The position numbers and the translations under genes were made by a program. From Geothrix sp. (GTDB lineage: Bacteria > Acidobacteriota > Holophagae > Holophagales > Holophagaceae), in contig NZ_JAHRYQ010000001.1 in NCBI RefSeq assembly GCF_020622065.1, positions 1,612,001-1,676,000 of the forward strand: a stretch of DNA of 64,000 nucleotides, given 5' to 3'. This document shows positions 2,530-57,598 of the stretch, one piece after another (positions within the stretch are counted from its first letter, which is position 1; every line of letters starts with the position of its first letter). Below the pieces are notes generated by a model. It worked only from the letters and a program-made list of their open reading frames with translations, ran no database searches and was not told the DNA's origin.

Positions 2530-2532
2530 TCG

Positions 2533-15223: not shown

Positions 15224-15275
15224 GCCGCCTCCTGCCTCGTGTATTGAGGCCTAGATCATGGCGCAGGTCGCCGCT

Positions 15276-16124: not shown

Positions 16125-16140
16125 CGGTCACTCCGGCCCC

Positions 16141-16150
16141 AGCGTACAAT
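16141..16150. promoter_or_regulatory. Overlapping divergent -10 elements for nadC (-) and enoyl-CoA hydratase (+)
   Basis: The decamer AGCGTACAAT reads TACAAT on the plus strand (16145-16150) and TACGCT on the minus strand (16146-16141). Each is followed by GG. The two hexamers share the central TA step. Confidence 0.5.
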
Positions 16151-16181
16151 GGTCGGCAACGATCCCCCATCAGGAGTCCCC

Positions 16182-16958: not shown

Positions 16959-16973
16959 GTTCTGACATCCTCA

Positions 16974-17003
16974 AAAAAGGCGGGCCATCCGGCCCGCCTT
17001 TTT
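16974..17003. terminator. Bidirectional rho-independent terminator
   Basis: AAAAAGGCGGGCC / GGCCCGCCTTTTT, a 13-bp stem with loop ATCC and A- and T-runs on the two sides. It serves the enoyl-CoA hydratase and the convergent beta-propeller gene. Confidence 0.93.
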
Positions 17004-17020
17004 CCTGAAAGAGGAAACCG

Positions 17021-40830: not shown

Positions 40831-40919
40831 CCCAATAAACGCAGGAGAAGGCGCTTTGGACCTCCACCCCGCTGCCGCAAAGATGATGCGATGATCGGTT
40901 GGAGTACGAGGTCATTGAG

Positions 40920-44272: not shown

Positions 44273-44288
44273 TGGCTCGACCCTTGCT
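44273..44288 (+). promoter_or_regulatory. Sigma-54 promoter P1
   Basis: TGGCTC-GACCC-TTGCT places GG (44274-44275) and GC (44286-44287) exactly ten bases apart, as in the TGGCAC-N5-TTGCW consensus. AAATTAACC lies 14 bp upstream. The transcript would start near 44299 and run into the exported CYTH-like gene at 44397. Confidence 0.88.
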
Positions 44289-44396: not shown

Positions 44397-45350
44397 ATGA
44401 TCAAGCCATTCAGGAACCTGCTTCTGGCCCTGGCGGCCGCGACCTGCGCCCTGGTCACGGCTGGAGACGACCCCACGCCGCTCTTCAAGCGGAAGATCGC
44501 AATCCATCCCGCCCCCATGCTTGAAGATGTGAGTGGCCGGGAATACAAATTCCTCGTGGATCCCGCCAAGGCCAAGGGCACGCCGGCGGAGGCCTTCAAG
44601 GCGGTCTGGACCCGGGTGAAGGCCGCCGCCGCCAAGGAAGGCTTCACGGTCACCGAGAAGGAGAAGGCTCCGCTCAAGGTCGAGATGACCACGAAGGAGT
44701 ACCTGGACACGGCCGATCAGGCCCTCTGGAAGCGGGGCTACCTCATCCGCATCACCACCAAATACAAGGCCGGCATCGCCGATGCGAACGGCAAGGTGAC
44801 CGTGAAGGCCATCCATGAGGAGGTGGCCAAAACCTTGGCCGCGCCCCTGGAAGTGGTGGGGGTCAAGGGTGAGCAGGAGTGCCAGGACAATGTCGGCTCC
44901 GGCCCCAAAGGCCAGCTCGTCGGCTACATCGAGAAGGGCGCCAGTTTCTCGGTGCCGCTGGACGACCTCGGGAGCCTCACCCTGGGCGATTTCGGGAAGT
45001 ACATGCCTGAGCTCCTGAAGCTCGGCCTGCCGGCGGGGACGCGCCTGATTTCGAGCAAGGCCTACTCCTACCGCGTCCGCCCAGGCTATGTGGTATTGCC
45101 GGGAACCGAGCCCTGCGGCGTCTCCATGGAAGGCTGGGCGATGAAGGAGGACGGCCCGATCTTCCTCTACGACTTTTCCTACGGCTACGAAGACCTGACG
45201 CTCTACGAGAGCCCTGAGACCCACCTCCAGGGCGAGCGGTTCCTGAGCAAGGTCCTGCGCGGCGAGCTGGCCGGCCTGGCGCTTGCCGATGACGGCAAGT
45301 GGGGCGGCTCCAAGGTGCGCGTCCTCATGAAGCGGCCCATCGGCCAGTAG
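44397..45350 (+). CDS. Exported CYTH-like protein
   Basis: 317 residues with a signal peptide (NLLLALAAATCALVTAG). The mature part has the strand order of the CYTH/triphosphate tunnel fold: REYKFLVDP, VEMTTKEYLDTADQALWKRGYLIRITTKY, GKVTVKAIHEEV, then SKAYSYRVRP, SMEGWAMK with IFLYDFSYGYED, and a terminal ERFLSKVL helix. YLDTxDxxLxxxGxxLRI-type wording is typical, but the N-terminal ExExK is reduced to REYK. CYTH enzymes bind di-, tri- or polyphosphates in a cationic tunnel. It is the first gene after sigma-54 promoter P1, with GGGAGGC before ATG 44397. Periplasmic phosphate-compound handling is inferred. Confidence 0.75.
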   Translation: MIKPFRNLLLALAAATCALVTAGDDPTPLFKRKIAIHPAPMLEDVSGREYKFLVDPAKAKGTPAEAFKAVWTRVKAAAAKEGFTVTEKEKAPLKVEMTTKEYLDTADQALWKRGYLIRITTKYKAGIADANGKVTVKAIHEEVAKTLAAPLEVVGVKGEQECQDNVGSGPKGQLVGYIEKGASFSVPLDDLGSLTLGDFGKYMPELLKLGLPAGTRLISSKAYSYRVRPGYVVLPGTEPCGVSMEGWAMKEDGPIFLYDFSYGYEDLTLYESPETHLQGERFLSKVLRGELAGLALADDGKWGGSKVRVLMKRPIGQ

Positions 45351-45392
45351 CCAAGGGCCCCCAATCACCCCTTTCGAAGGAGAACCCCCGCG

Positions 45393-46244
45393 ATGCGAAT
45401 GTCGCTCACCCCGTCTCTGCTGCGGACCGCCCTGGTCTGCACCTTCCTCCCCGCCTTCGGCGGTCAGGATCCCGACCTTCTGGACAAGCAGTACGGCACC
45501 CTCCAGCAGCCCGCCTACATCAAGCACTACGAGGCGGATAAGGGCGGGAAAGTCCTGTTGAACCCCTACCTCCAGGTGGCCACGAAGGACCACCCCGGCA
45601 TCCTGGATCCCAAGCACGCGCCGTACAACTGGGTGATTGATGCGGAAGGCCGTGTGGGCATCATCCAGGAAGCTGCCCATCCCCTGGGTCGCACCTACGA
45701 GAAGGGCTTCTACCGGCCCGAGGACAAGTCCAAGCGCAAGCCCGGCACCACGGAGAACTACGGGCATGTCTCGGCCCTGGCGGGCGGCATGGGTCGCATC
45801 AGTGGCGAGATCCTCTACGACAAGGGCACGAACACCTTCACGGTGAACAACAAGTCGGGCCGATATTCCAAGAACAACGCGGACCGCACCCCCGAGCAGC
45901 TGGTGAATGCCGCCGCGCTGATCCGCGAGGTGGTGGATCCGGGTTCCGCCACCTGGGGTCCGGTGTTCTACCTGCTCGAATACGCTCCCGAGGACATCCG
46001 GGAGGAAAGCCTGAAACGGCCCGATGTGGCCTATGACGATGCGGCCAAGAAGAGCCGGCCGCACCTCACCGTGATGCCCGCGGCACCAGCGGCTCCCAAG
46101 GCGGCCAAGCCCGCAGTCAAAGCAGAAGAGGCCGAAGCCAAGCCCGCCGTCGCCGCATCCAAGGCCCCCGCGCCCAAGGCCGAGCCCGTGAAGGGGAAGA
46201 AGGCCAAGAAGCCCAAGGCAGCCAACAACGACGATCCGTCCTGA
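45393..46244 (+). CDS. Exported protein of unknown function with an Ala/Lys/Pro-rich tail
   Basis: 283 residues. A signal peptide (LLRTALVCTFLPAFGG) is followed by about 190 residues of unfamiliar globular sequence: PYNWVIDAEGRVGIIQEAAHPLG, ENYGHVSALAGGMGRISGEILYD, NNKSGRYSKNNADRTPEQLV and WGPVFYLLEYAPEDIREESL. The final 65 residues are low-complexity Ala, Lys and Pro (AAPAAPKAAKPAVKAEEAEA...), a cationic tail that could bind polyanions or the cell envelope. AAGGAG 10 nt upstream fixes the start. It is the second gene of run A, 42 nt after the CYTH-like gene. I do not recognise a family. Confidence 0.75.
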   Translation: MRMSLTPSLLRTALVCTFLPAFGGQDPDLLDKQYGTLQQPAYIKHYEADKGGKVLLNPYLQVATKDHPGILDPKHAPYNWVIDAEGRVGIIQEAAHPLGRTYEKGFYRPEDKSKRKPGTTENYGHVSALAGGMGRISGEILYDKGTNTFTVNNKSGRYSKNNADRTPEQLVNAAALIREVVDPGSATWGPVFYLLEYAPEDIREESLKRPDVAYDDAAKKSRPHLTVMPAAPAAPKAAKPAVKAEEAEAKPAVAASKAPAPKAEPVKGKKAKKPKAANNDDPS

Positions 46245-46292
46245 GGCATGTCCCGACCGCGCCTTCCAACCATTCCATGGAGTTGAGCAGAG

Positions 46293-47090
46293 ATGAGAAA
46301 GACACCGCTAGAAAAGACCGTTGCCACCCTGTTCGGACTGGGCCTGGCCCTTTCCACGAGCTGGGGGCTGAGCGCCCTTCCCCTGTCCGGTGCCGAACCT
46401 GGGCCCGGGGTAACCCCGCAGGTCTCCGTACTCAAGGGGGAGAAGAACTTCTTCACGGGCTATGACACCCACAATGTGGATGGCACGGTCAACGCCGTGA
46501 TCGAGATCCCCGCGGGCACCACGGCCAAATACGAAGTCAGCATCAAGACCGGCCTCATCGAGCTGGAGCAGAAGAACGGCGCCCCCCGATTCGTCCAGTA
46601 CTTGGGCTATCCCTGCAACTACGGCAACATCCCCCGCACCATCCTCTCCAAGCAGAAGGGCGGGGATGGCGATCCCGTGGATGTCCTCGTGCTCGGTCCC
46701 GCGATCCCCACCGGATCCGTGGTGAAGACGCGCCCCATCGGGATCCTCAGCCTCGTCGACGGCGGCGAGATTGACGACAAGGTCATTCTCGTCCCGGAAG
46801 GGAGCCCCTTCGCCAGCTGCAAGAGTGTGGACGAGCTGGACGCGAAATTCCCCGGGGCGACCACGATCCTGAAAACCTGGTTCACCTCGTACAAAGGGCG
46901 GGACAAGAAGGGCAACCTGATCCTGAGTTCACCCGGTTTCAAGGGGCGTGCCGAGGCCATCCGGCTCATCGGGGACGCGGCCCTCGACTACGAGCGCTCC
47001 GTGGTCACCGAGGCCGACAAGCGGACCCTGGACGAGAAGGGCAACCCCCGCCTGTACCGCTGGGCCGGCGCCAAGAACCTGGGCGAGTGA
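46293..47090 (+). CDS. Exported family I inorganic pyrophosphatase
   Basis: 265 residues, against about 175 for cytoplasmic Ppa. The extra N-terminus includes a hydrophobic signal-like segment (TVATLFGLGLALSTSWGLSA, residues 9-28) and a 25-residue linker. The catalytic core is canonical: EIPAGTTAKYEVSIKTG, YLGYPCNYGNIPRT, the metal-binding signature GDGDPVDVLVLG with Asp125, Asp127 and Asp130, and LKTWFTSYKG with the conserved Lys-Tyr region. It should hydrolyse PPi, and the leader implies a periplasmic site. Lying in the sigma-54 run with a porin of the phosphate/pyrophosphate class, it may supply phosphate from external PPi. Confidence 0.9.
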   Translation: MRKTPLEKTVATLFGLGLALSTSWGLSALPLSGAEPGPGVTPQVSVLKGEKNFFTGYDTHNVDGTVNAVIEIPAGTTAKYEVSIKTGLIELEQKNGAPRFVQYLGYPCNYGNIPRTILSKQKGGDGDPVDVLVLGPAIPTGSVVKTRPIGILSLVDGGEIDDKVILVPEGSPFASCKSVDELDAKFPGATTILKTWFTSYKGRDKKGNLILSSPGFKGRAEAIRLIGDAALDYERSVVTEADKRTLDEKGNPRLYRWAGAKNLGE

Positions 47091-47113
47091 TCGCCGCCTC
47101 ACCAGGAGTCCCC

Positions 47114-47563
47114 ATGTCAGTCACCCATTGGCTCATGCCCATCGCCCTGGTCAGTCCCGTCCTGGTGGCCCAGGACACCCGGGAGGTCGAGGCCTTCGTG
47201 AAGGAGGCCGTCAGCTACGCCAAGGCTAATTCCCGTGACGCCTTCCTGAACGAAGTGTCGCGCCCCACCGGGCGGTTCAATGTCCAGAAGACGAAGCGGC
47301 TCTACCTCACGGTCTACGATCTCGATGGCAAGGTCATTGGCCACGGCAAGAAGACCCAGGAAGTCGGCGGCAACCAGTTCGCCGCCAAGGACAAATCCGG
47401 GAAGCTCTACATCCAGGAGCGGATCGGCCTCGCCCGCAAGAAGGGCGGTGGCTGGGTCGAGGAGACGAAGATCAATCCCGCCAACATGCAGACCCAGGTG
47501 AAGCGGACCTTGGTCGCTTTCCAGAGCGGTATGGTCATCTGCTGCGGCATGTACGAAGGTTAG
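47114..47563 (+). CDS. Exported single Cache-domain protein
   Basis: 149 residues. After a signal peptide (HWLMPIALVSPVLVAQ) nearly the whole mature protein is one sCache_2-like domain: EAFVKEAVSYAKANSRDAFLNEVSR, GRFNVQKTKRLYLTVYDLDGKVIGHGKK, KDKSGKLYIQERIGLARKKGGGWVEE and a closing VAFQSGMVICCGMYEG. Cache domains usually form the ligand-binding part of chemoreceptors and sensor kinases. Here there is no transmembrane helix or output domain, so it may be a soluble binding protein. AGGAG precedes ATG 47114. It is the fourth gene of run A. Confidence 0.82.
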   Translation: MSVTHWLMPIALVSPVLVAQDTREVEAFVKEAVSYAKANSRDAFLNEVSRPTGRFNVQKTKRLYLTVYDLDGKVIGHGKKTQEVGGNQFAAKDKSGKLYIQERIGLARKKGGGWVEETKINPANMQTQVKRTLVAFQSGMVICCGMYEG

Positions 47564-47590
47564 CCCGGTCCTCCAGCCAGGCTGATCACC

Positions 47591-47617
47591 GGGGGGAGCG
47601 TGTTTATCGCTCCCCCC
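47591..47617 (+). repeat. Intercistronic 10-bp hairpin
   Basis: GGGGGGAGCG / CGCTCCCCCC perfect stem with a 7-nt loop TGTTTAT between the Cache and histidine phosphatase genes. There is no T-run, so processing or attenuation is more likely than full termination. Confidence 0.7.
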
Positions 47618-47635
47618 TTCCAGTTGGAGGCCCGA

Positions 47636-48160
47636 GTGCTCCGTTCCCTGCTGCTCACCTTGACCCTCTGCCTCACCCTCGGCGCCCAGGACACCGTGGT
47701 CGTATTCCTCCGGCACGCGGAGAAGGCCCACCGGGGCGACACCGCCGTGCTATCGGCCCAGGGCCGCCGCCGCGCTGAAGCGCTTCCCGGCGACCTGGCT
47801 GCCTATCATCCGACGGCCCTGTTCGCCTCGAACCTGATCCGCACCCAGCAGACCTTGGCACCCCTCTCGAAGCGGCTCGGCCTTCCGATCCGGGTCTACA
47901 CGCGGGGAAGCGAGGGCGCGCTCGGCCGGCACCTCCTCATCCAGCATCCGGGCCAGGTCATAGTGGTCTGCGGCCATTCGGACACCCTGACGGATCTGGT
48001 GAGCGCCCTGGGGTACCCGGACACCTTTCCGGAGGTCGCGGGATTTGACCGCTTCTGGGTGCTCCGGGTCAAACCCGGCGACGGAACGCCAAGCCTGGAG
48101 GAATGTCGACAGCGGCCCCTGCCCCCGGACCCAGCGCCCGCCCAGGAGGCCAAGCCGTGA
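47636..48160 (+). CDS. Exported histidine phosphatase (RHG family)
   Basis: 174 residues from GTG 47636, preceded by TTGGAGG; a GTG at 47600 lies inside the hairpin and is less likely. The signal peptide is MLRSLLLTLTLCLTLGAQ. Phosphoglycerate mutase-type motifs follow: VVVFLRHAEKAHRGD with Arg26 and phospho-acceptor His27, FASNLIRTQQTLAPLSKRLG, and VVCGHSDTLTDLVSALG with the second catalytic His. Periplasmic relatives include phytase-like and sugar phosphatases. The location and neighbours suggest release of phosphate from external esters, but the substrate is unproven. The next gene starts within its stop codon (GTGA). Confidence 0.88.
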   Translation: MLRSLLLTLTLCLTLGAQDTVVVFLRHAEKAHRGDTAVLSAQGRRRAEALPGDLAAYHPTALFASNLIRTQQTLAPLSKRLGLPIRVYTRGSEGALGRHLLIQHPGQVIVVCGHSDTLTDLVSALGYPDTFPEVAGFDRFWVLRVKPGDGTPSLEECRQRPLPPDPAPAQEAKP

Positions 48161-48960
48161 GGCCGGCGGTCGCAGTCCTTCTGCTGGCCACGGGCCTGCC
48201 TCTGCTGCCCTGGGGACCAGAAGGCCATCGATTGGCTGCGGCGGCCTCTCTCTCCAGCCTGCCGCCTGGCCTCCGGAGTTGGTACACCGGGAGGGAGCCA
48301 GAATTTCTCCTGGCGGCCTTGGAACCAGATCTCTGGAAAGACCAGGATCCCGCTGAAGTCGGCCGCCATCGGATCTACAGCGAAACCTACGGGGGCGCCA
48401 CCCGGGTGCCGCTGACCATCGCGGAAGCCCGCACCCAGGTGGGTGCCTGGGCCTTCGAGCAGAGCGGTCAACTCCCATGGGTGATCGCCGAGCGGTACGC
48501 CCTCCTCGTAAAAGCCTTCCGGTCGAGGCGACTCGAAGCGGTGGTGACGGCCAGCGGCTGGCTTTGCCATTATGTCGCCGATGCCCAGGTGCCCCTCCAC
48601 ACCACCCGGAACCGGAACGGCAAGCTGACCGGGCAGAAGGGCGTGCACCGGCGCTGGGAGATCGATCTGTTGCGCCAGGGTGTCGAGAACCTCCCCGATC
48701 CCCGTCTGGCCGTGGCGCCAGCGGATCTTCACCGTGCCGTGTCCAGTTGGGTGGTCGAGAGCCACGCCCTCGTGCAGACCCTGCTGGCGGCGGACTCGGC
48801 GACCCCCCGGCACGGACTCCGAGGGACCGCGTCGGCCGAAGAAGGCCCATGGCACGAACAGAAGGCGGTGGCCGAGCGCCAGCTCCGGCGATCTGGCGAA
48901 CGCACCGGCGACCTCTTACTGGCAGCCTGGGTGGAGGCTGGGCGCCCTTCGCCACGCTGA
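48157..48960 (+). CDS. S1/P1-nuclease / zinc phospholipase C-like exported protein
   Basis: 267 residues from GTG 48157, overlapping the previous stop by 4 nt and preceded by AGGAGG. The short signal peptide VRPAVAVLLLATGLPLLP leads directly into WGPEGHRLAAAA; mature S1/P1 nucleases and PLC enzymes begin with Trp as a zinc ligand. The metal-binding core HYVADAQVPLHTTRNRNG followed by GVHRRWEIDL matches the family order of His, Asp and His. The fold cleaves phosphodiesters in nucleic acids or phospholipids, again a phosphate-releasing function. Substrate class is not certain. It is the last gene of run A. Confidence 0.78.
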   Translation: MRPAVAVLLLATGLPLLPWGPEGHRLAAAASLSSLPPGLRSWYTGREPEFLLAALEPDLWKDQDPAEVGRHRIYSETYGGATRVPLTIAEARTQVGAWAFEQSGQLPWVIAERYALLVKAFRSRRLEAVVTASGWLCHYVADAQVPLHTTRNRNGKLTGQKGVHRRWEIDLLRQGVENLPDPRLAVAPADLHRAVSSWVVESHALVQTLLAADSATPRHGLRGTASAEEGPWHEQKAVAERQLRRSGERTGDLLLAAWVEAGRPSPR

Positions 48961-48988
48961 TACCGATCCAGGGGCCCGCCCTTTCCGC

Positions 48989-49025
48989 GAGCGGAACCCC
49001 GCATGGGGTGTGCGAGATTCCGCGC
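48989..49025. promoter_or_regulatory. Putative enhancer (UAS) dyad B
   Basis: GAGCGGAACCCCGCAT and GTGCGAGATTCCGCGC (49010-49025) form an imperfect dyad (12 of 16). 31 of 37 positions match dyad A in the same orientation, and its first base is likewise exactly 111 bp before the -24 element of promoter P2. Confidence 0.75.
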
Positions 49026-49099
49026 AAAGCCGAGGCCGCAGTGCGGATGCCAATGTCCTATCTAAAGGTAATCAAAGAAATTAACCTTCTGGTAGAGAA

Positions 49100-49115
49100 T
49101 GGCTCGGGGCTTGCT
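49100..49115 (+). promoter_or_regulatory. Sigma-54 promoter P2
   Basis: TGGCTC-GGGGC-TTGCT with GG (49101-49102) and GC (49113-49114) ten bases apart. AAATTAACC occurs 14 bp upstream, at the same relative place as in P1. The transcript would start near 49126, 90 nt before the porin gene. Confidence 0.88.
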
Positions 49116-49215
49116 GTTGAGGAATTGGCCCCGGGTCCACGCCAGGGGCGACACATCTACTCCCCCACCGGCAGGCCCGCGTGACCTGCGTTCAAGCTCA
49201 CCTAGGAGCGAACCC

Positions 49216-50541
49216 ATGAAAGCTCTCCTCTCCCCCCTGGCCCTGGCCCTGATGGCCGGCCCGCTCTTCGCCCAGACATCGGCGGATACGGACCAGCGCC
49301 TGTCCGATCTTGAGAAGAAGATCGAAAAGCTGACGAAGCTCGAGACCAGGAAGGACGACGCCAAGGACAGCGGATTCACCGTGAAGTTCGGTGGCCGCTT
49401 CCACCTCGATTCCGTCTTCTTCAATGGCAACGAAAACCGTCTGGCGAACGGCACCCAGCTGCGCCGCGCCCGCATCAGCTTCAAGGCCACCTTCGGGAAG
49501 AACTGGCTGGGCGAAGGCGACTACGACTTCGCCGACAGCACCGCGTCCATCAAGGACATGTGGATTGGCTACCAGGGCTTCAAGAACACGCTGATCCAGG
49601 TGGGCCAGTTCAAGGCCCCCTTCGGTTTCGACACCCTCAGTTCCTCGAACGCGATCTGGTTCACGGAGCGCTCGTACAGCGATGTCTGGACACCGGACCG
49701 GCATGTGGGCGTCGCCTACCAGACCTGGGGCGAGCGCTGGCAGACCAAGCTGAACTTCTTCGGCCAGGCCATTGACGACACGAACAACGCGGGTTCCCTC
49801 GACGCCAACGGCTCGGATCAGGGCTGGGGCTACGCCGGCCGGTTCACCTTCGCGCCCGTGCTGGTCTCGGAAACCAAGGCCGTGCACCTGGGCGTGGCCA
49901 CCACCTACCGCAAGCCCAACGCCGACTACAGCACCACCACGCTCACCCCCCTGGCGAGCCTGCAGTATGTGGTGGATCTCTCCGGCCGGCCCGAGGCGGG
50001 GAAGATCAGCAAAGCGAAGTTCCTGAACGCGAAGATCTCGAATGTGGACAACTGGAAGCAGTACGGCGCTGAGCTGGCGGGCGTCTGGGGCCCGTTCTCC
50101 TGGCAGGGTGAGTATCAGCAGACCAAGGTCTACCGCCGCGCCGCGGTCGGTACTGGCGCCGCGGCCCTGGCCAGCGTGGTGGATCACAGCTTCGCCACCT
50201 ACTACGGCCAGGTGTCGTGGGTCTTCGGCGGGCAGCGCACTTATGAGGTCAGCGATGGCCTCTTCGGCAAAGTGGTGCCTTCCAAGAACGGCGCCTGGGA
50301 AGTGGTGGCCCGCTACAGCAAGATGGACCAGGACGACCTGACGGCCCTGGATGCGGTGAAGGGCGGCGTGGCGAAGAACATGAGCCTCGGCCTGACCTAC
50401 TACATGAACAAGAACATCCGCTGGATGATGGACTACACGAAGGTGGACAACAACGAGAACGCCAAGCCCAAGGGCGTCTACGGCGGCATCGTGAACGACG
50501 ACTTCGCCTTCACCAGCCTCCGCCTGCAGGTGAACTTCTAA
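49216..50541 (+). CDS. OprO/OprP-family phosphate- or pyrophosphate-selective porin
   Basis: 441 residues. A signal peptide (LLSPLALALMAGPLFAQ) precedes a short coiled coil (TDQRLSDLEKKIEKLTKLETRK, about residues 23-44) and then a 16-stranded barrel with the family wording FTVKFGGRFHLDSVFF, LRRARISFKATFGKNW, VGQFKAPFGFDTLSSSN and a C-terminal strand ending LRLQVNF. Pseudomonas OprP selects phosphate and OprO pyrophosphate/polyphosphate; selectivity here cannot be read. It is the first gene after sigma-54 promoter P2 with AGGAG before ATG 49216. It is the outer-membrane entry point that best supports a phosphorus role for the block. Confidence 0.92.
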   Translation: MKALLSPLALALMAGPLFAQTSADTDQRLSDLEKKIEKLTKLETRKDDAKDSGFTVKFGGRFHLDSVFFNGNENRLANGTQLRRARISFKATFGKNWLGEGDYDFADSTASIKDMWIGYQGFKNTLIQVGQFKAPFGFDTLSSSNAIWFTERSYSDVWTPDRHVGVAYQTWGERWQTKLNFFGQAIDDTNNAGSLDANGSDQGWGYAGRFTFAPVLVSETKAVHLGVATTYRKPNADYSTTTLTPLASLQYVVDLSGRPEAGKISKAKFLNAKISNVDNWKQYGAELAGVWGPFSWQGEYQQTKVYRRAAVGTGAAALASVVDHSFATYYGQVSWVFGGQRTYEVSDGLFGKVVPSKNGAWEVVARYSKMDQDDLTALDAVKGGVAKNMSLGLTYYMNKNIRWMMDYTKVDNNENAKPKGVYGGIVNDDFAFTSLRLQVNF

Positions 50542-50556
50542 TCCTGGATCCGGCCT

Positions 50557-50587
50557 GGAGGGGCCATCCATCGCGGTGGCCCCCTCC
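50557..50587 (+). repeat. Intercistronic hairpin after the porin gene
   Basis: GGAGGGGCCA pairs with TGGCCCCCTCC (one bulged C) around a 10-nt loop, 16 nt after the porin stop. There is no T-run. It may protect the porin mRNA end or lower downstream expression. Confidence 0.65.
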
Positions 50588-50643
50588 GCCCGTCTCCGGG
50601 AGGCACGAACTCAACCCATCACCCTCTGGCCTCCGGGATATCC

Positions 50644-51255
50644 ATGAGCAAGGCCGCTCCCCTAGACATGCCCCGTTGGGAATGGCGATCCTTCGCTCCG
50701 TCCTTCGACACATTCCGACGGGACCACCCTGAGTTGTTGGTCTCGCCAACGGTCACTTCGCAGGATGTCTGCCTCCTGTGCCGGATGAGCATGCACGATG
50801 TCCAGATCCAGCAGGGCGCGGTGCGGCTCAAGTGGCGCAAGGAAACGGGACCCGGCGGCTTGGAACTGTGGGATCCGGTCCTCTCCGCCGCCTTTCCCTG
50901 CCCGGCAGCGGTGGTGGCACGACTCTTCGAGGCCTGGGGCCTCCCGACCCCGAAGCTGGACCGATCCGAGTACACCCAAGAGCAGTTCCTGGAAACCGTC
51001 CGACAGCACACCCCCGAGGTCCGTGCCGTCAGCATCTTGAAGCAATCCGAAATGTTTCAACTGGATGGCGTCAGCGGCGAATTCGACCGATTGACAATCC
51101 GCCACGCCAGGGTCGAGTGCCTTTCCGTGGAGCACGAAGATCCTGGCCTGACCCTCCAGGTCATCGCCCGCCTGGGACTCCGAGCGCGAGGCAACACCAG
51201 TTACCCGCAGGGACTCAAAGACGCCCTGCGAATCCACCCCATCCCCAGACACTGA
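50644..51255 (+). CDS. Divergent CYTH-like protein (cytoplasmic)
   Basis: 203 residues, no signal peptide. The strand pattern resembles the CYTH-like superfamily: RWEWRSFAPSF, SQDVCLLCRMSMHDVQIQQGAVRLKWRKE, LELWDPVLSAAFP, SILKQSEMFQLDGVSGEFDRL, and RVECLSVEHEDPGLTLQVIARLGL. It is clearly collinear with the product at 55505 (matching EFR-x-F, Y-T-x-F, a charged strand before the basic K-W-R-K turn, and an NT-x-YP/L ending). The classical ExExK is absent, so it may bind rather than hydrolyse phosphates. It stands between the porin and the canonical CYTH gene. Confidence 0.62.
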   Translation: MSKAAPLDMPRWEWRSFAPSFDTFRRDHPELLVSPTVTSQDVCLLCRMSMHDVQIQQGAVRLKWRKETGPGGLELWDPVLSAAFPCPAAVVARLFEAWGLPTPKLDRSEYTQEQFLETVRQHTPEVRAVSILKQSEMFQLDGVSGEFDRLTIRHARVECLSVEHEDPGLTLQVIARLGLRARGNTSYPQGLKDALRIHPIPRH

Positions 51256-51269
51256 ATCGGAGCCTCGAC

Positions 51270-51743
51270 ATGGCCAAGGAAATCGAACGGAAGTACCTCG
51301 TCAACCTCGCCGCCTGGAAACCCCAGGGCGAAGGCACGCATTTCAAGCAGGGCTACCTGAACTCGCAGAAGGAGCGGGTTGTGCGCGTGCGCATCGAGGG
51401 GACGAAGGCCAAACTCACCATCAAGGGCATCACCACGGGCGTCACCCGCGCCGAGTTCGAGTACCTGATCCCCGGGGAGGATGCCGCGATCCTCCTGGAC
51501 AACCTCTGCGAGCAGCCGCTCATCGACAAGCACCGCCACAAGGAAGTACACGGGGGAAAGACCTGGGAGATTGATGTCTTCCATGGCGAAAACGAAGGCC
51601 TGGTGGTGGCCGAGGTGGAGCTGGCCTCCGAAGGCGAGAAGATCATGCTGCCGGACTGGGTCGGCCAGGAGGTATCCAGTGATCCGCGCTACTTCAACTC
51701 CAACCTCCTGAAGCACCCCTTCAAGAACTGGACCAAGGCCTAA
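51270..51743 (+). CDS. CYTH-domain protein (triphosphate tunnel family)
   Basis: 157 residues, cytoplasmic, one complete CYTH domain. It begins with the hallmark EIERKYLVN (residues 4-12), then FKQGYLNSQKERVVRVRIEGTKAKLTIKG, RAEFEYLIPGEDAAILLDNL, IDKHRHKEVHGGKTWEIDVFHGENEGLVVAEVEL, and the closing DPRYFNSNLLKHPF. Characterised relatives (for example the short bacterial TTM proteins) hydrolyse inorganic triphosphate or make cAMP. Triphosphatase is the likelier activity given size and context. GGAG upstream of ATG 51270; 14 nt after the divergent CYTH gene. Confidence 0.93.
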   Translation: MAKEIERKYLVNLAAWKPQGEGTHFKQGYLNSQKERVVRVRIEGTKAKLTIKGITTGVTRAEFEYLIPGEDAAILLDNLCEQPLIDKHRHKEVHGGKTWEIDVFHGENEGLVVAEVELASEGEKIMLPDWVGQEVSSDPRYFNSNLLKHPFKNWTKA

Positions 51744-51753
51744 TCCCTCTCCC

Positions 51754-51778
51754 GCGGGCCACCCCATCGGTGGCCCGC
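51754..51778 (+). repeat. Intercistronic hairpin before the DASS gene
   Basis: Perfect 10-bp stem GCGGGCCACC / GGTGGCCCGC with loop CCATC. No T-run follows. Confidence 0.65.
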
Positions 51779-51794
51779 ACTTTCAGGTTCCGGC

Positions 51795-53360
51795 ATGAAT
51801 TCCGAAGCACGACCCGCCAACGCCTCGCCCACCCTCCAGGAGCTCCTGGACATGGAGAAGATGACACTCTCCTCGAAGGTGAGGGAGGCGCAGAGCCCCA
51901 CCGAACAGTGGATGCGCTACCTGGGATTCCCGGGCGGCATCCTGCTGTTCCTCCTCATCTACTACCTGCCCGCCGGCGCCGGCCTGAGCGCGTCGGCCCA
52001 ATCCGGCGCGGCCTGCTTCATGCTCGCCCTGGTCTGGTGGGTGACTGAACCCTTCCCGACCTATGTCACCTCTCTCGTCCTGATGTTCCTGCTGCTGGTG
52101 ACGCGCACCTCGAACGCCAAAGCCATCATGGATGTCCTGGGGATGGAGGTGATTTGGCTGAACCTGCTGGCTTTCATCCTGAGTTCCATGCTGGTGAAGA
52201 CCCGCCTGGCCAAGCGCATGGCCCTGTGGCTGGTGCTGCGCTTCGGCCACAAGGCCAGCTGGGCCCTGCTGGCCTTCGTCGTCCTGCAGCTGGCCCTCGC
52301 GCCGCTCATCCCCGCCACGGCCGCCCGGTGCGTGATGACCCTGCCCCTCATGATCGTGGTCGCCACCATCTATGGCTCCACGGAAGCCACGCCGAACGCC
52401 TTTGGCAAGAACATCATGCTGCTCAACCTGGCCTGCATTTCGGTGCTCTCGTCCATCACCATGACCGGCAGCTCGGCCAACCTCATCGCAGTGGGTCTCA
52501 TCCAGAACATGGGCGGGCACCGGGTCTACTACATGGACTGGATGCGTCTGGGCGCGCCGGTGGCCATCGTCACCATGCTGCTCATGTGGATCCTCGGGCA
52601 GAAGCTCCTCTTCCGCATCCGGCCCGAAGACCAGGTTCCCCAGGTGGAGGGCGGGCTTGATCTGGTCCGGGAGCAGTACCGGGCCATGGGCCCCCTGAGC
52701 TTCCAGGAGAAGAAGGCCATCGCCATCTTCAGCATGGTGTTGTTCCTATGGATGACCGACATCTTCCACATGCGATGGTTTGGCGTGGAGATCAGCGCGC
52801 CCTTCGCCGCACTGCTGGGGGCGGTGATCGTGCTCTTCCCCCGTTGGGGCATCCTGTCCTGGGCCGAGGCGGACATTCCGTGGCACCTGTTGATCTTCAG
52901 CGCGGGCGCCTACGCGGGCGGCCTGGCCCTGGATGACACGGGGGCAGCCGAGTGGGGCGTCCGGATGCTCTTCGGGGGGATGAACCTCCAGGGGGTGCCC
53001 TTCGGGATCACCTACACCGTGGTGATCTCCGTGATGATGTACAGCCACCTGCTCACCACCTCGAAGACCGTCCGTACCCTCATCATGATTCCGATCATCA
53101 TCACCCTGGCCAAGGCCCTGGGCTGGAATCCGCTGTCGCTGGCCCTTCCTGCCGCCCTCTGCATCGACTGGGTGGTGGGCCTGCCCATCAGCGGCAAGCC
53201 GAATGTGATCCTCTTCTCCACCAACCAGTTCACGGTTTCGGACAATTTCAAGTACGGCATGCTCACCTGCACCCTAGGAGTGCTGATCCTGGTGATCTCC
53301 GGGGCCACCTGGTTCCACTGGCTGGGCATCACGCCCGCGTTCTGGGCGGTGGCACCATGA
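51795..53360 (+). CDS. DASS-family (SLC13-type) anion:Na+ symporter
   Basis: 521 residues with about 12 transmembrane segments. Family-typical stretches are WWVTEPFPTYVTSLVLMFLL, IWLNLLAFILSSMLVKT, MTLPLMIVVATIYGS, TMTGSSANLIAVG (the SNT-like substrate/sodium hairpin) and the second-half WHLLIFSAGAYAGGLAL with LPISGKPNVILFSTNQF. DASS proteins carry dicarboxylates, sulfate or phosphate. The N-terminal 45 residues are cytoplasmic and charged. In this context phosphate or an organic anion is plausible but not shown. The stop overlaps the next ATG (ATGA), indicating coupling with the membrane-anchored protein. Confidence 0.88.
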   Translation: MNSEARPANASPTLQELLDMEKMTLSSKVREAQSPTEQWMRYLGFPGGILLFLLIYYLPAGAGLSASAQSGAACFMLALVWWVTEPFPTYVTSLVLMFLLLVTRTSNAKAIMDVLGMEVIWLNLLAFILSSMLVKTRLAKRMALWLVLRFGHKASWALLAFVVLQLALAPLIPATAARCVMTLPLMIVVATIYGSTEATPNAFGKNIMLLNLACISVLSSITMTGSSANLIAVGLIQNMGGHRVYYMDWMRLGAPVAIVTMLLMWILGQKLLFRIRPEDQVPQVEGGLDLVREQYRAMGPLSFQEKKAIAIFSMVLFLWMTDIFHMRWFGVEISAPFAALLGAVIVLFPRWGILSWAEADIPWHLLIFSAGAYAGGLALDDTGAAEWGVRMLFGGMNLQGVPFGITYTVVISVMMYSHLLTTSKTVRTLIMIPIIITLAKALGWNPLSLALPAALCIDWVVGLPISGKPNVILFSTNQFTVSDNFKYGMLTCTLGVLILVISGATWFHWLGITPAFWAVAP

Positions 53361-54073
53361 GGATCCTTCGGCTTCTTCCCTTCCTGGCGCCCTGCCTGCT
53401 GATGGCCACGGACATCCAGTCCTATGTGGTGCGGCTCCACGCCGACGAACAGGGGACTGGCCAGGCCACGGCCACGGTGGTCCTCACGGGCGCAATGCCC
53501 GGCACGCTCAGCCTGCCGCTCGGCTTTCCCTCCCCTGAGAATCCGCGGCTGGTGGAAGCGCCAGCCGGCGTGGGCCTGGAATGCGGGCCGCGAAACGGCA
53601 TGACCACCCTCCGGTTCCACCTGCCCGAGGGCATCCCGGACACGGCCACCCTGCGCGTCGCCTTCGAGGTGAAGCGGGCCATCCAGGAGGTTCAGCTGGG
53701 GCCGGGCGAGCGGACCACCCTCCCGGCAAACAGCCGCCTCTTCCGGCATGCCTTCGTGAACTCCCAGGAAACCGCCATCGGGAGCTACCGGTTCGAATTT
53801 CTCTTCCCGGAGGACATGATGGCCCAGGCCATCCGCGAGCAACTGCCGAAACTGAAGAAGGCAGAAGTCGGCCCCCGGGTGCTGCTCACCCAGCTGGACG
53901 GGCATCAGGCCGCCATCTTGCAGTTCACGGGCCTTCGTCAGGGCGATGACACCTCCATGGTCGTGGAGGTGGTGCCAAGGCGCCGGTCCTTCGGCTGGCT
54001 GATCGCCGGCATCGTTCTCGCGGGGCTCTACCTCGTCCACTTCAAAGATCTCGTGTCCAGGAAGCGGTCCTAG
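53357..54073 (+). CDS. Membrane-anchored beta-rich protein of unknown function
   Basis: 238 residues. A signal peptide (LRLLPFLAPCLLMATD) and a single C-terminal transmembrane helix (SFGWLIAGIVLAGLYLVHF, about 212-230) with basic flanks (RRR before, SRKRS at the end) place the body outside and the short tail in the cytoplasm. The external part is beta-strand-rich (ATATVVLTGAMPGTLSLPLG, TTLRFHLPEGIPDTATLRVAFEV) followed by AQAIREQLPKLKKAEVG. No known domain was recognised. The ATG lies inside the DASS stop codon, so it may be an accessory subunit of that transporter. Confidence 0.75.
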   Translation: MRILRLLPFLAPCLLMATDIQSYVVRLHADEQGTGQATATVVLTGAMPGTLSLPLGFPSPENPRLVEAPAGVGLECGPRNGMTTLRFHLPEGIPDTATLRVAFEVKRAIQEVQLGPGERTTLPANSRLFRHAFVNSQETAIGSYRFEFLFPEDMMAQAIREQLPKLKKAEVGPRVLLTQLDGHQAAILQFTGLRQGDDTSMVVEVVPRRRSFGWLIAGIVLAGLYLVHFKDLVSRKRS

Positions 54074-54131
54074 CCCGATCCCCACAACCGCGATCAACCC
54101 GCAGCCGGCCCCGGCCGCCTTGGAGCGTCAT

Positions 54132-55421
54132 TTGTTCCCACCCCAGTTCACCCCTTTCCTCCTCACCGTCGCCATCAGTTCGCTGATCGGCATCGGCCTG
54201 CGCGAATACTACGAGCAGGAAGGAAAGCGGGACACCTTCGGGACGGTCAGGACCTTCATCTTCCTCGGGCTGCTGGGTCACATGCTCTACCGGATCCCGG
54301 TCATCGGCCCCTACGCCTTCCTGGTGGGCATGGTGGTGGTGGGCCCCTTCCTCCTGATCTACTACAACCACAAGGTCAGCCAGCAGAAAAGTCCTGGTCT
54401 CATCGGCGTGCTCATCGCCCTCCTCACCTACAGCGTGGGCCCGGTGGTGATCCACGAGCCGCACTGGTACCTCGTCGCCTTCGCTGTCACCATTCTCTTC
54501 GTGCTGCATTCCAAGGGCCGCATCCGGCAGTTCACGGACCGGCTGGAAACTGGCGAAGTCGTGACCGCCTGCAAATTCCTGGCGATCGCCGGCGTCATCC
54601 TGCCCCTGATCCCGGCGGTACCGCCCACGGATGGCCTGGGCGGAAAGATCTTTGCCGTGCTTCCCGTCGGACCGCATCAGATCTGGATGGCCGTGGTGGT
54701 GACCACCGCCATCTCCTACTTCGGCTATGTGTTGCAGACCTACCTCTACCCCAAGAAGGGCCTGCTGCTGACGGGCCTGATCGGGGGGCTCTATTCCAGC
54801 ACCATGACGGTCCTGGTGATCTCCAAGAAGACCCGTGCCCACGGCCACCAGGCCCGGGAGGCCGCCGCGGCCATCATGCTGTCCACCCCCACGATGTACC
54901 TCCGCATCCTCTTCCTGGTTGCAGCCTTCATGCCCCTGGGTGCCATCCAGCTCGTGCCGCCCTTCCTGATCTTCTCCCTCATGGCCGGTGCCTATGCCTG
55001 GTGGCTGCGCCGTGGCGGAGCCCCCGCCACCGATCCAACTGAGGGTGACGAGGTCGTGGAAGTCAAGGAGCGCAACCCGCTTGAGCTGAACGCCGCACTG
55101 CTGTTCGCCCTCATGTTCGTCACCGTGTCCCTGGTCACCAAGTTCGTTCTGCTGCGCTTCCAGGAGCTGGGGCTCCGGATGCTCTCCTTCCTCGTGGGCG
55201 CTTCCGACATCGTCCCCTTCATCGTGTCAGTCCTGCAGGGGAACCTCGGCATCGGCACGCACCAGATCCTCCAGGCCATCGTCATCGCCACCGCCTCGAA
55301 CAATGTGATGAAGACCGCCTACACCTTCGCCTTCGGTCACCGCCAGACCGCCCGCCTCACGGCGCTCGGCATGGCGGGGATCGTCGGCCTCTCCTTCCTC
55401 TACGCCGCCGTTGCCTTCTAG
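54132..55421 (+). CDS. MgtC/DUF4010-type membrane protein (copy 1)
   Basis: 429 residues with about 12 hydrophobic segments. The N-terminus has the MgtC/SapB-like pattern FLLTVAISSLIGIGLREYYEQ...TFGTVRTFIFLGLLG, and the rest follows the DUF4010 pattern: GRIRQFTDRLETGEVVTACKFLAIAGVILPLIP, GLLLTGLIGGLYSSTMTVLVISKK and DIVPFIVSVLQGNLGIGTHQILQAIVIATASNN. TTG 54132 is chosen because GGAG precedes it and the frame then aligns from residue 1 with copy 2 (MFPPQFTPFLL versus MLPPQVAPFLL). Function is unknown; MgtC relatives affect Mg2+ and phosphate homeostasis and ATP synthase. Confidence 0.85.
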   Translation: MFPPQFTPFLLTVAISSLIGIGLREYYEQEGKRDTFGTVRTFIFLGLLGHMLYRIPVIGPYAFLVGMVVVGPFLLIYYNHKVSQQKSPGLIGVLIALLTYSVGPVVIHEPHWYLVAFAVTILFVLHSKGRIRQFTDRLETGEVVTACKFLAIAGVILPLIPAVPPTDGLGGKIFAVLPVGPHQIWMAVVVTTAISYFGYVLQTYLYPKKGLLLTGLIGGLYSSTMTVLVISKKTRAHGHQAREAAAAIMLSTPTMYLRILFLVAAFMPLGAIQLVPPFLIFSLMAGAYAWWLRRGGAPATDPTEGDEVVEVKERNPLELNAALLFALMFVTVSLVTKFVLLRFQELGLRMLSFLVGASDIVPFIVSVLQGNLGIGTHQILQAIVIATASNNVMKTAYTFAFGHRQTARLTALGMAGIVGLSFLYAAVAF

Positions 55422-55439
55422 GCCCGGCGGCATCTTCCC

Positions 55440-55484
55440 GCCCCTGCCCCCAGGGGCACCCGCCCTGGATGGATCTCCCATCCA
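55440..55484 (+). repeat. Two adjacent small hairpins between DUF4010 copy 1 and the next gene
   Basis: GCCCCTG / CAGGGGC (55440-55446 with 55451-55457) and TGGATGG / CCATCCA (55466-55472 with 55478-55484), both perfect 7-bp stems without T-runs. Confidence 0.5.
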
Positions 55485-55504
55485 CCCCTCACTGGAGCAA
55501 CCCC

Positions 55505-56143
55505 ATGTCCGATGTGTTTGCCAAGAACACTGCCACTTCCGCCGAAGACGCCCTGAAGGTGATTCCCCGCGCCGAGTTCCGGGTCTTCGGGCCTGGCATC
55601 ATCGAGTTCGTGAAGGAAAAGATGTGGAACGGCAAGACCGTCCTCTTCCAGGCCCGCCGCATGCCGAAGGAGACCTACTTCCTGAGCGCGAAGACGAACG
55701 ACGCCAATGTGAAGGTGCGCGACGGCCTGCTGGACATCAAGACCAAGGTGGGCGAGACCCCCGAAGGCTATGAGATCTTCCAGCCCCGCGGGAAGTTCCA
55801 GTTCCCCGTGAAGAAAGAAGATCTGGCCACCATCCTGTCCCACCTCAAGGTCGAGATGGTCCTGGACAAGGAGGTCTACACCATCGATGAATTCATCGCG
55901 ATGGCCCGCAAGCACCCCGACCTGGTTCCCGTGGCAGTCGAGAAGATGCGCTACGGATTCACCATTGACGGCATCATCTGCGAGTACGCCCAGGTCTGGT
56001 TCAACGGCGCCATGGTGGAATCCGCCTGCGCGGAGAGCGAGAACTACGATGGGATGCGCCAGGTGATCGAGGGCCTCGGCATCTGTGCCATGCCGAACAC
56101 CAACTACCTGAAGGCGGCCAAGCGCGTCATGGGCATGGAATAG
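55505..56143 (+). CDS. CYTH-like protein, paralog of the 50644 product
   Basis: 212 residues, no signal peptide. It shares the layout of the gene at 50644: RAEFRVFGPGIIEFV, KETYFLSAKTNDANVKVRDGLLDIKTKV, GYEIFQPRGKFQFPVKKEDL, YTIDEFIAMARKHPDLVPVAVEKMRYGFTIDGIICEYAQVWF, ESACAESENYDGMRQVIEGLGI and TNYLKAAKRVMG. Strands VKVRDGLLDIKTK and EKMRYGFTIDGIICEYAQV suit the CYTH beta-tunnel, with several inward Lys/Arg/Glu candidates, although ExExK is not conserved. GGAG before ATG 55505. It sits between the two DUF4010 copies. A phosphate-ligand role is inferred from fold and neighbours. Confidence 0.65.
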   Translation: MSDVFAKNTATSAEDALKVIPRAEFRVFGPGIIEFVKEKMWNGKTVLFQARRMPKETYFLSAKTNDANVKVRDGLLDIKTKVGETPEGYEIFQPRGKFQFPVKKEDLATILSHLKVEMVLDKEVYTIDEFIAMARKHPDLVPVAVEKMRYGFTIDGIICEYAQVWFNGAMVESACAESENYDGMRQVIEGLGICAMPNTNYLKAAKRVMGME

Positions 56144-56166
56144 CTTCACCCCACCTCCATGCCCCA

Positions 56167-56200
56167 CCCCGGGGCGGCTTCGGGGGGAGCCGCTCCGGGG
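56167..56200 (+). repeat. Intercistronic hairpin before DUF4010 copy 2
   Basis: CCCCGGGGCGGCT pairs with AGCCGCTCCGGGG (13 bp with one G-U) around an 8-nt loop. No T-run follows. Confidence 0.65.
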
Positions 56201-56263
56201 CCTGCATAGGGACCCTTCCCCGACGCTTGCCCCTTCCTCCTGTTCCACCGTCCCGGAGTCCCC

Positions 56264-57598
56264 ATGCTTCCACCCCAGGTGGCGCCCTTCCTGCTGACCC
56301 TCGCCATCAGCACCCTGATCGGCATCGGTCTGCGGGACTACTACGAGAGCGAAAAGAAGTTCGACACCTTCGGCACAGTTCGGACCTTCGTCTTCCTCGG
56401 CATGCTGGGCTTCATGCTCTACCAGATCCCCGGGGTCGGCCAGATCGCGTTCCTGCTGGGCATGGCCGCGGTGGTCCCCTTCCTGCTGGTCTACTACAGC
56501 AACAAGGTGCACCAGAAAAAGAGCCCCGGGCTCATCGGTGTGCTCATCGCCCTGCTCACCTACACCACAGGGCCCGTGGCACTCCACCAGCCCCACTGGT
56601 TCCTGGTGCTCTTCGGCGTCTCGATCCTGTTCATCCTCCATTCGAAAGGGCGGATCCGCCAATTCACCGACCGGCTGGAGACGGGCGAGGTGGTCACCGC
56701 CTGCAAGTTCCTCGCAATCGCCGGAGTGGTGCTGCCGCTGATCCCGAGCCTGCCGCCGACTTCCGGGGCCATGGGCCAGATCTTCACAGTGCTGCCCGTG
56801 ACCCCCCGGCAGATCTGGATGGCCGTGGTGATCACCACGACCATCTCCTACCTGGGCTATGTGCTCCAGACCTACCTCGTCCCCCGCAAGGGCATGCTGC
56901 TGACGGGCCTGATCGGCGGGGTCTACTCCAGCACGGTGGCCGTGCTGGTGCTGGCCAAGAAATCCAAGCGCCACCCCGGGCACGACCAGGAGGCCGCCGC
57001 AGCGATCCTGCTGGCGGTCTGCATGATGTACCTGCGCCTCCTGGTGCTGGTCTCCATCTTCCGCATCAGCTCAGCCCTCCAGGTGGGACCGGCGCTGCTG
57101 GTGCTTGCGGGCCTGGCCGCCGGGTACGCCTTCTGGATCCGCCGAGACCAGTCAGCGGCAGCGGTCACCCCCATTCCCGAGGCGATGCCCGTGGAAGCTC
57201 CTGGCGAAGGCCCCACACCCGCCGAGGGTGAGGAGCCGGCCCTGCACAAGAACCCCCTGGAGATCAATTCGGCCCTCTTCTTCGCCGTCATGTTCGTGGC
57301 GGTCTCGCTGGCCACGAAGTACACCCTGCTCTACTACAAGGGCATGGGCCTGCGCATGCTGTCCTTCCTGGTGGGCTGTTCCGACATCACGCCTTTCGTG
57401 GTCTCGGTCCTGCAGGGCAACCTGGGCATCGGCACTTCTCAGATCCTGCAGGCCATCATCATCGCCAGCGCCAGCAACAACCTGCTGAAGGTGGCCTATA
57501 CCTACATGTTCGGAACACGGCACACCGCCAACCTGGCGGCCATGGGGATGATCCCCCTGGCGGTACTCTCGATCCTGTATTCCGTCTTCTTCCTGTGA
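56264..57598 (+). CDS. MgtC/DUF4010-type membrane protein (copy 2)
   Basis: 444 residues, a close paralog of the product at 54132 over its full length: FLLTLAISTLIGIGLRDYYE, FGTVRTFVFLGMLGFMLYQIPG, GRIRQFTDRLETGEVVTACKFLAIAGVVLPLIP, GMLLTGLIGGVYSSTVAVLVLAKK and DITPFVVSVLQGNLGIGTSQILQAIIIASASNN. A variable acidic/proline loop (VEAPGEGPTPAEGEEP) replaces the shorter one of copy 1. GGAG before ATG 56264. The two copies are separated only by the CYTH-like gene, suggesting duplication and possibly hetero-oligomers or two ion specificities. Function unknown. Confidence 0.85.
   Translation: MLPPQVAPFLLTLAISTLIGIGLRDYYESEKKFDTFGTVRTFVFLGMLGFMLYQIPGVGQIAFLLGMAAVVPFLLVYYSNKVHQKKSPGLIGVLIALLTYTTGPVALHQPHWFLVLFGVSILFILHSKGRIRQFTDRLETGEVVTACKFLAIAGVVLPLIPSLPPTSGAMGQIFTVLPVTPRQIWMAVVITTTISYLGYVLQTYLVPRKGMLLTGLIGGVYSSTVAVLVLAKKSKRHPGHDQEAAAAILLAVCMMYLRLLVLVSIFRISSALQVGPALLVLAGLAAGYAFWIRRDQSAAAVTPIPEAMPVEAPGEGPTPAEGEEPALHKNPLEINSALFFAVMFVAVSLATKYTLLYYKGMGLRMLSFLVGCSDITPFVVSVLQGNLGIGTSQILQAIIIASASNNLLKVAYTYMFGTRHTANLAAMGMIPLAVLSILYSVFFL

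Follow-up and report, generated by a model that had tools for sequence, protein, structure and literature searches.

Four triphosphate tunnel-type proteins in two cell compartments of Geothrix sp.: a probable sigma-54 regulon that may handle short phosphate chains

Among the triphosphate tunnel metalloenzymes (TTMs), NeuTTM and CthTTM are hydrolases of inorganic tripolyphosphate (PPPi), NeuTTM being a specific tripolyphosphatase (PPPase) with the catalytic dyad Tyr28/Lys52 (PMC3440374). The tested members of this short type are PPPases without significant cyclase activity, although CyaB-type adenylate cyclase is a frequent annotation among bacterial CYTH proteins (PMC3440374). In AtTTM3, for which residue roles were derived from a mutational and structural map, the acidic patch comprises Glu2, Glu4, Glu90 and Glu171, and the protein was crystallised with citrate inside the tunnel (3v85; PMC4641920). 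Vtc4 carries basic residues at the acidic-patch positions, which steer the growing polyphosphate (polyP) chain away (PMC4641920). Here a stretch of 64,000 nucleotides from Geothrix sp., a soil- or sediment-type member of the Holophagaceae (contig NZ_JAHRYQ010000001.1, positions 1,612,001 to 1,676,000; in the following the window) is analysed, in which four proteins with TTM fold are encoded within 12 kb, one of them exported and three internal. The fold is given by structure prediction or a family model for three of them and by homology for the fourth. All four are genuine open reading frames (ORFs) on the plus strand and are named after their first position in the window:

44397..45350, +, exported TTM-fold protein with the motif GxExK; R118, K137, E179, E245 and D259 conserved (AlphaFold2 model, PDB matches, alignment A3)
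50644..51255, +, degenerate paralogue of 55505 (TTM fold from homology to 55505)
51270..51743, +, canonical CYTH protein, predicted inorganic tripolyphosphatase of NeuTTM type (Pfam CYTH, 2fbl/3typ, conserved motifs)
55505..56143, +, TTM protein of RxExR type, namesake of a widely distributed family without a Pfam model (AlphaFold2 model, PDB TTM matches, relatives)

Within the window the Pfam CYTH model finds 51270 alone of the four; one further Pfam-detectable CYTH gene of the host, whose genome is complete, is located on a second contig, and genomes of Acidobacteriota contain between zero and two such genes. Neither 44397 nor 50644 nor 55505 has a Pfam CYTH match at E values up to 1, and for 44397 none was found in NCBIfam either. 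They are therefore regarded as TTM-fold sister families and not as members of the CYTH family. For the 55505 family neither Pfam nor NCBIfam contains a model, and the VTC domain gave no match with 55505 or its relatives (E up to 1).

The most conventional of the four is 51270, a single domain of 157 amino acids (aa) which passes the Pfam CYTH model (PF01928) with 55.8 bits against a cut-off of 23.2. Its closest solved structures are 3typ (E 6.6e-14) and 2fbl, the latter representing NE1496/NeuTTM (E 1.4e-13). The ExExK motif, a second ExE (E62/E64) and the VRVR-type arginines are invariant in 55 of 55 relatives, all of which also keep the dyad Tyr29/Lys52 corresponding to Tyr28/Lys52 of NeuTTM. 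Judged by sequence, the acidic patch for metal 2 is present as well. Thus 51270 carries every residue of a catalytic tripolyphosphatase and looks fully catalytic. It shares its short single domain and all these motifs with NeuTTM and CthTTM, but differs from NeuTTM in being embedded in a regulon of porin, transporter and pyrophosphatase genes, a type of gene context that was not found for NeuTTM in the literature searched. If 51270 were instead a class IV adenylate cyclase, the cluster would represent a cAMP-controlled transport system. Apart from the CyaB-type annotations mentioned above, the structures 3n10 and 2fjt, which are among the fold matches of 44397 and 55505, would fit such a role. 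However, 51270 is of the short type whose tested members are PPPases, and a cyclic-nucleotide-binding domain was seen only in the SulP variant of the related loci L034 and L037. A cyclase is very improbable and was set aside because 51270 is of the PPPase type.

The relation of the exported 44397 and of 55505 to the TTMs was approached by structure prediction. The alignments behind the AlphaFold2 models comprised 11 rows for the exported family (A3) and 67 rows for the 55505 family (A2). The model of 44397 (pLDDT 89.8, pTM 0.85) matches 6yp4 with Z 12.5 over 192 aa, AtTTM3 with Z 12.1 and YgiF with Z 11.4 (Foldseek E value 7.6e-8). That of 55505 (pLDDT 93.0, pTM 0.86) matches the ThTPase structure 5a64 with Z 12.7 over 176 aa and YgiF with Z 12.0 (Foldseek E value 1.6e-6). 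The top of both structure lists consists of TTMs only, namely HpAC1, AtTTM3, YgiF, ThTPase and SaTTM; Mediator Med18/20 and RNA triphosphatases follow below, and VTC structures reach Z 7.5-9.4. Both models form an eight-stranded beta tunnel of TTM topology, with the strand order b1-a-b2-b3-b4-b5-a-b6-b7-b8-a in 55505. Both proteins share the tunnel fold with AtTTM3, YgiF and ThTPase, and their conserved basic residues follow one another along the strands as in these enzymes. Both differ from them in the replacement of ExExK by GxExK (44397) or RxExR (55505), and 44397 is in addition exported and has long insertions. Compared HMM against HMM, neither the 55505 family nor the exported family showed a significant relation to CYTH profiles (probabilities <8%), and sequence-profile searches of the PDB with the divergent families gave weak matches, e.g. 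1yem (E 0.27) and 3sy3 (E 0.12). Since the profile comparisons gave no relation, the TTM assignment of both proteins rests on predicted folds: the two families are beyond sequence recognition of CYTH, and the relation shows at the level of the modelled fold alone.

An earlier note, made from the letters of the window, had proposed four CYTH-type proteins in two compartments within 12 kb, two of them mutually similar. This is borne out by the Pfam match of 51270, the predicted folds of 44397 and 55505 and the homology of 50644 to 55505 (E 3.8e-11, 26 % identity), and the eight-stranded tunnel, whose absence from predicted structures would have refuted the proposal according to the note, is present in both models. 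The profile relation to CYTH that the note had suggested looking for did not appear. The loss of ExExK, attributed there to 50644 and 55505, applies to both, which have RxExR in strand 1, but extends to 44397.

Relatives of 55505 are widely distributed. With the peptide pattern PR[FWA]E[FW]R[TVS]F[GA] at least 550 of them were found in GTDB species genomes, belonging to Acidobacteriota, Spirochaetes, Burkholderiales (including gut ones), Alphaproteobacteria, Cardiobacterium, Desulfobacterota, Bacteroidota (including gut Bacteroidales) and one Accumulibacter genome. Isolates are represented among them, although the labels of some metagenome-assembled genomes (MAGs) are questionable. Relatives from different phyla can be 75-85 % identical, which suggests either horizontal spread or misbinning of MAGs. 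Two genomes of Acidobacteriota encode fusions of a 55505-like domain with a Ppx/GppA exopolyphosphatase (L016:547-2055, minus strand, in genome G125, and L144 in genome G332; the two proteins are 62 % identical).

Near-invariant positions in 80 sequences of the family are R22, E24, R26, F28, K70, R72, D77, K79, E90, K97, K147, R149, E160 and E177; K70, R72, K79, K147, R149 and E177 are present in at least 79 of the 80. For the mapping onto TTM enzymes, strand order, side-chain alternation and weak profile registers were used. By strand order, the residues fit the basic positions of TTMs on strands 3, 4 and 6 and the site-1 glutamate on the last strand. The acidic-patch positions are occupied by R22, E24, K97 and E179 (Glu in 47 of 80), so that the full patch is missing. 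Glu2 and Glu90 of AtTTM3 would correspond to R22 and K97, which suggests a Vtc4-like swap. With Vtc4, 55505 has in common the fold and a retained metal site 1, and on this mapping it would also resemble Vtc4 in the basic residues at R22 and K97. It differs in remaining acidic at the other two of the four patch positions, E24 and E179, and in having no VTC Pfam match, SPX domain or membrane domain, and a polymerase role is hypothetical.

The neighbouring paralogue 50644 has taken a different course. Relative to 55505 it shows the replacements K70Q, R72Q, D77R, K97S and R149S, and its orthologues in other genomes have different residues at the lost positions. Copies of this type were seen in Holophagaceae only; Bacteroidota possess a tandem pair of 55505 relatives of their own, in which both members keep the nearly full motif. 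From its residues, 50644 looks like a decayed copy of the 55505 type. As the one looks decayed and the other is conserved, the two paralogues cannot be treated as a single subfamily sharing one function. The non-catalytic subfamily proposed in the earlier note suits 50644, which has lost tunnel residues. For 55505 the term is unproven: a residue set which includes the mapped catalytic arginine and is near-invariant in about 80 relatives from many phyla does not describe a decayed enzyme. As a new subfamily in its own right, the divergent type does hold for 55505. The binding or sensing members assumed inside the cell are likewise part of the picture but not all of it, because 51270 has the full catalytic residue set.

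The exported protein 44397 begins with an N-terminal export signal (MIKPFRNLLLALAAATCALVTAG; hydrophobicity). At its acidic-patch positions for metal 2 it has G47, E49, probably E179, and S261, an incomplete patch, and the site-1 residue on the last strand is Asp259. The first patch glutamate is thus lost, and DxS stands in place of the usual ExE. A profile of the exported family, run over the phylum, found no members beyond those from the single-sequence search. The gene heads unit 1 (44397-48960), all products of which bear N-terminal export signals:

45393..46244, +, exported protein, weakly XopV-like (NCBIfam NF041375, 33.9 bits against a cut-off of 220)
46293..47090, +, exported inorganic pyrophosphatase (Pfam PF00719, E 2e-34; N-terminal hydrophobic segment)
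47087..47563, +, exported single-Cache-domain protein (Pfam sCache_2)
47600..48160, +, exported protein of the histidine phosphatase superfamily (Pfam PF00300, E 1.8e-11)
48103..48960, +, exported zinc-dependent phospholipase C/S1-P1-like protein (Pfam PF00882, 28.4 bits, slightly over the cut-off)

The exported TTM and the exported pyrophosphatase are also linked in the related loci L033, L039, L042, L043, L059 and L077. The XopV-like gene accompanies the exported TTM gene in other loci as well; the trio with the pyrophosphatase stays together in Rhodocyclaceae, Parasutterella and Desulfospira, and its first two members are linked in Desulfovibrionaceae. Stepwise degradation outside the cell, as the earlier note had it, agrees with this linkage in so far as the exported TTM travels with an exported pyrophosphatase; periplasmic catalysis by 44397 itself is only plausible, given the lost glutamate and the DxS. 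Variants of this region were seen in other genomes. In L033, a MAG, the exported TTM and the XopV-like protein are encoded as a single reading frame of 606 aa (15214-17034). In the locus L027 of a related member of the Holophagaceae, the exported pyrophosphatase is accompanied by a metallophosphatase-like ORF, probably exported, and by an adenylate kinase (2134-3298 and 6105-6776). In Rhodocyclaceae a DHH phosphatase adjoining the exported trio (L033:17912-18931, L043:15912-16934) starts with a segment resembling a signal peptide and may therefore be an exported exopolyphosphatase or pyrophosphatase.

The three cytosolic tunnel proteins are encoded in unit 2 (49216-57598) together with a porin and membrane transporters:

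49216..50541, +, OprP/OprO-type anion (phosphate/polyphosphate) porin (Pfam Porin_O_P, E 3.7e-52)
51795..53360, +, sodium-coupled anion symporter of the DASS family (TIGR00785, 203.4 bits against a cut-off of 198.6)
53357..54073, +, small exported or membrane protein, conserved in orthologous clusters (no Pfam match)
54120..55421, +, DUF4010 membrane protein a (Pfam PF13194, E 1.3e-48)
56264..57598, +, DUF4010 membrane protein b, paralogue of 54120 (about 64 % identical to it)

The DUF4010 pair flanks 55505 in Holophagaceae and some other Acidobacteriota. After the cluster, an exported protein of 357 aa is encoded at 57611-58684 of the window.

The order CYTH-55505-DASS, often preceded by Porin_O_P, is found again in Burkholderiales, Bacteroidota, Acidobacteriota and others, while Spirochaetes and Desulfobacterota have TctCBA in place of DASS. 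Linkage was counted in those 55 loci in which the sequence extends at least 3.5 kb in both directions from the 55505 relative, and clustering of neighbours made use of codon-bias filtering of ORFs. A CYTH gene lies at most 5 kb from the 55505 relative in 43 of the 55 loci, DASS or TctA in 48, Porin_O_P in 22 and the phosphate transporter PiT in 18. In the isolates Saezia, Parasutterella, Turicimonas and Cardiobacterium, CYTH and DASS are found within 28 and 95 bp. Further phosphate-linked neighbours are DUF47/PhoU_div and, in 16 of 80 loci, a DHH-DHHA2 phosphatase, and the regulators at such loci are of the LysR or NtrC type. Several side features accompany them. A protein of about 485 aa without Pfam match directly follows DASS in L063 (12265-13719), L099 (12735-14228) and 12 more loci, from Burkholderiales, Bacteroidota, Cardiobacterium and Desulfospira. 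A SulP transporter directly follows the 55505 relative in L034 (10667-12883) and L037 (10636-12870), both MAGs labelled Gemmatimonadetes; that of L037 carries STAS and cyclic-nucleotide-binding domains. Loci of the Bacteroidota type (L088-L108) encode exported lamin-tail/CotH-like and SdiA-regulated proteins between porin and tunnel genes.

Both units appear to be under common control. The elements concerned are:

40899..42821, +, sensor histidine kinase of PAS-domain type, probable partner of 42802 (ORF; also precedes the cluster in three further genomes)
42802..44163, +, NtrC-type sigma-54 activator with GAFTGA motif, probable regulator of both units (sequence)
44273..44288, +, sigma-54-like promoter TGGCTCG-N4-TTGCT upstream of unit 1 (motif scan; similar site in L025, L027 and L039)
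49100..49115, +, sigma-54-like promoter TGGCTCG-N4-TTGCT upstream of unit 2 (motif scan; conserved in orthologous upstream regions)

These two sites, each with one mismatch and located in the two large gaps between the genes of the run, are the only ones in the window with at most one mismatch from the sigma-54 consensus, a total which is not significant by itself (2 against 0.53 expected; 12 of 100 shuffles). However, 12 of the 15 upstream regions compared, own and orthologous, contain such a site, lying 71-180 bp ahead of the start codon, where about 0.001 is expected per region. Furthermore, 7 of 31 genomes of the genus carry an orthologue of the regulator (at least 79 % identity), and it is these 7 and no others that have orthologues of the exported TTM, of 50644 and of 55505. 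The four tunnel genes thus probably belong to one regulon of the sigma-54/NtrC type with putative promoter sites.

The transporters and their control would also fit a module for the import of citrate or another tri- or dicarboxylate, in which the tunnel proteins bind this polyanion and not phosphate chains. DASS and TctCBA are classically carboxylate transporters, they interchange beside 55505, and sigma-54 control of the DctB/DctD kind is usual for carboxylate uptake. The citrate in the AtTTM3 tunnel points in the same direction. Nevertheless, the remaining neighbours are linked to phosphate (pyrophosphatase, PiT, DUF47, DHH-DHHA2, Porin_O_P and the Ppx/GppA fusion), and 51270 has the full tripolyphosphatase dyad, so that carboxylate import is improbable.

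Less improbable, but still doubtful, is a role in homeostasis. The cluster would then manage internal polyP or PPPi together with the phosphate balance: 55505, and with it 50644, would be non-catalytic sensors controlling DASS, DUF4010 and PiT, akin to SPX over VTC and phosphate transporters, and 51270 would clear toxic PPPi made inside. In nearly all loci 55505 stands directly beside membrane transporters, its acidic patch for metal site 2 is partly replaced, the mapped catalytic arginine is lost from 50644, and the host genome encodes a polyphosphate kinase. On the other hand, the porin and the exported unit of TTM, pyrophosphatase and phosphatases, which has the same kind of promoter, would be left unexplained, and 55505 retains the mapped catalytic arginine and the invariant site-1 glutamate, which pure binding does not demand.

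The explanation favoured here, held about as firmly as its opposite, is a sigma-54-regulated locus that acquires phosphate, or the energy of phosphoanhydride bonds, from condensed phosphates outside the cell, most likely tripolyphosphate and short-chain polyP. The kinase/regulator pair 40899/42802 would switch on both units. In the periplasm, the tunnel protein, pyrophosphatase and phosphatases of unit 1 would bind or shorten chains and split pyrophosphate (PPi). The OprP/OprO-type porin would serve as entry through the outer membrane and the DASS symporter, or TctCBA in other phyla, as passage through the inner one. In the cytosol, 51270 would hydrolyse PPPi to PPi and phosphate, and 55505, with Arg and Lys where tripolyphosphatases have acidic-patch glutamates, may hold, process or sense longer chains. 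The decayed copy 50644 is possibly a partner subunit. In favour of this explanation are the predicted tunnel folds, the closeness of 51270 to NeuTTM with its invariant motifs, the phosphate-linked neighbours, the Ppx/GppA fusions, the shared occurrence of regulator and tunnel genes, and the sites in front of both units.

Several points weigh against acquisition of condensed phosphates. The analysis shows folds, a residue pattern, a conserved gene unit and promoter-like sites, whereas which substrate is used, which way transport runs and whether 44397, 50644 and 55505 are active are what we infer from these. DASS and TctCBA are known mainly as transporters of di- and tricarboxylates. With an acidic-patch glutamate lost and DxS for ExE, 44397 is possibly no enzyme. 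The Vtc4-like swap of 55505 follows from secondary-structure order and weak profile registers, not from superposed coordinates. The loci for the neighbour counts were picked by similarity to 55505 and include many MAGs, so they are not independent samples; the seven genomes sharing regulator and tunnel genes may be one clade; and sigma-54-like sites with up to two mismatches are not enriched across the window.

Among described systems of phosphate acquisition, the OprO/OprP porins and pyrophosphatase of the Pho regulon resemble this locus in combining an anion porin of the same Pfam family with exported phosphate hydrolases. Here, however, the porin is coupled to DASS or Tct and three cytosolic tunnel proteins, and the regulator is of the NtrC and not the PhoB type. 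Growth of Haloferax volcanii on exogenous polyP likewise has outside polyP as phosphorus source, but the enzyme is archaeal, and the paper does not use the term CYTH (PMC13318637). No description of such a condensed-phosphate module or of an exported CYTH-like protein was found in the open-access literature, which is weak evidence of absence. Somewhat short of an even chance is the wider proposal that these loci represent an undescribed, horizontally spread pathway for the uptake of PPPi and short polyP, in which the charge-swapped tunnel of the 55505 type threads longer chains beside a NeuTTM-type PPPase, some lineages adding an exported tunnel protein, so that periplasmic and cytosolic tunnel proteins are joined in one regulon.

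By bringing a specific PPPase together with an anion porin, an importer, an exported pyrophosphatase and two tunnel families that had gone unrecognised, the conserved unit offers a testable job for the PPPase. The residue swap of 55505 provides a natural comparison of tripolyphosphatase and polyphosphate-polymerase tunnels. The 55505 family is apparently undescribed, and its setting points to an uncharacterised system which takes up or breaks down short phosphate chains.

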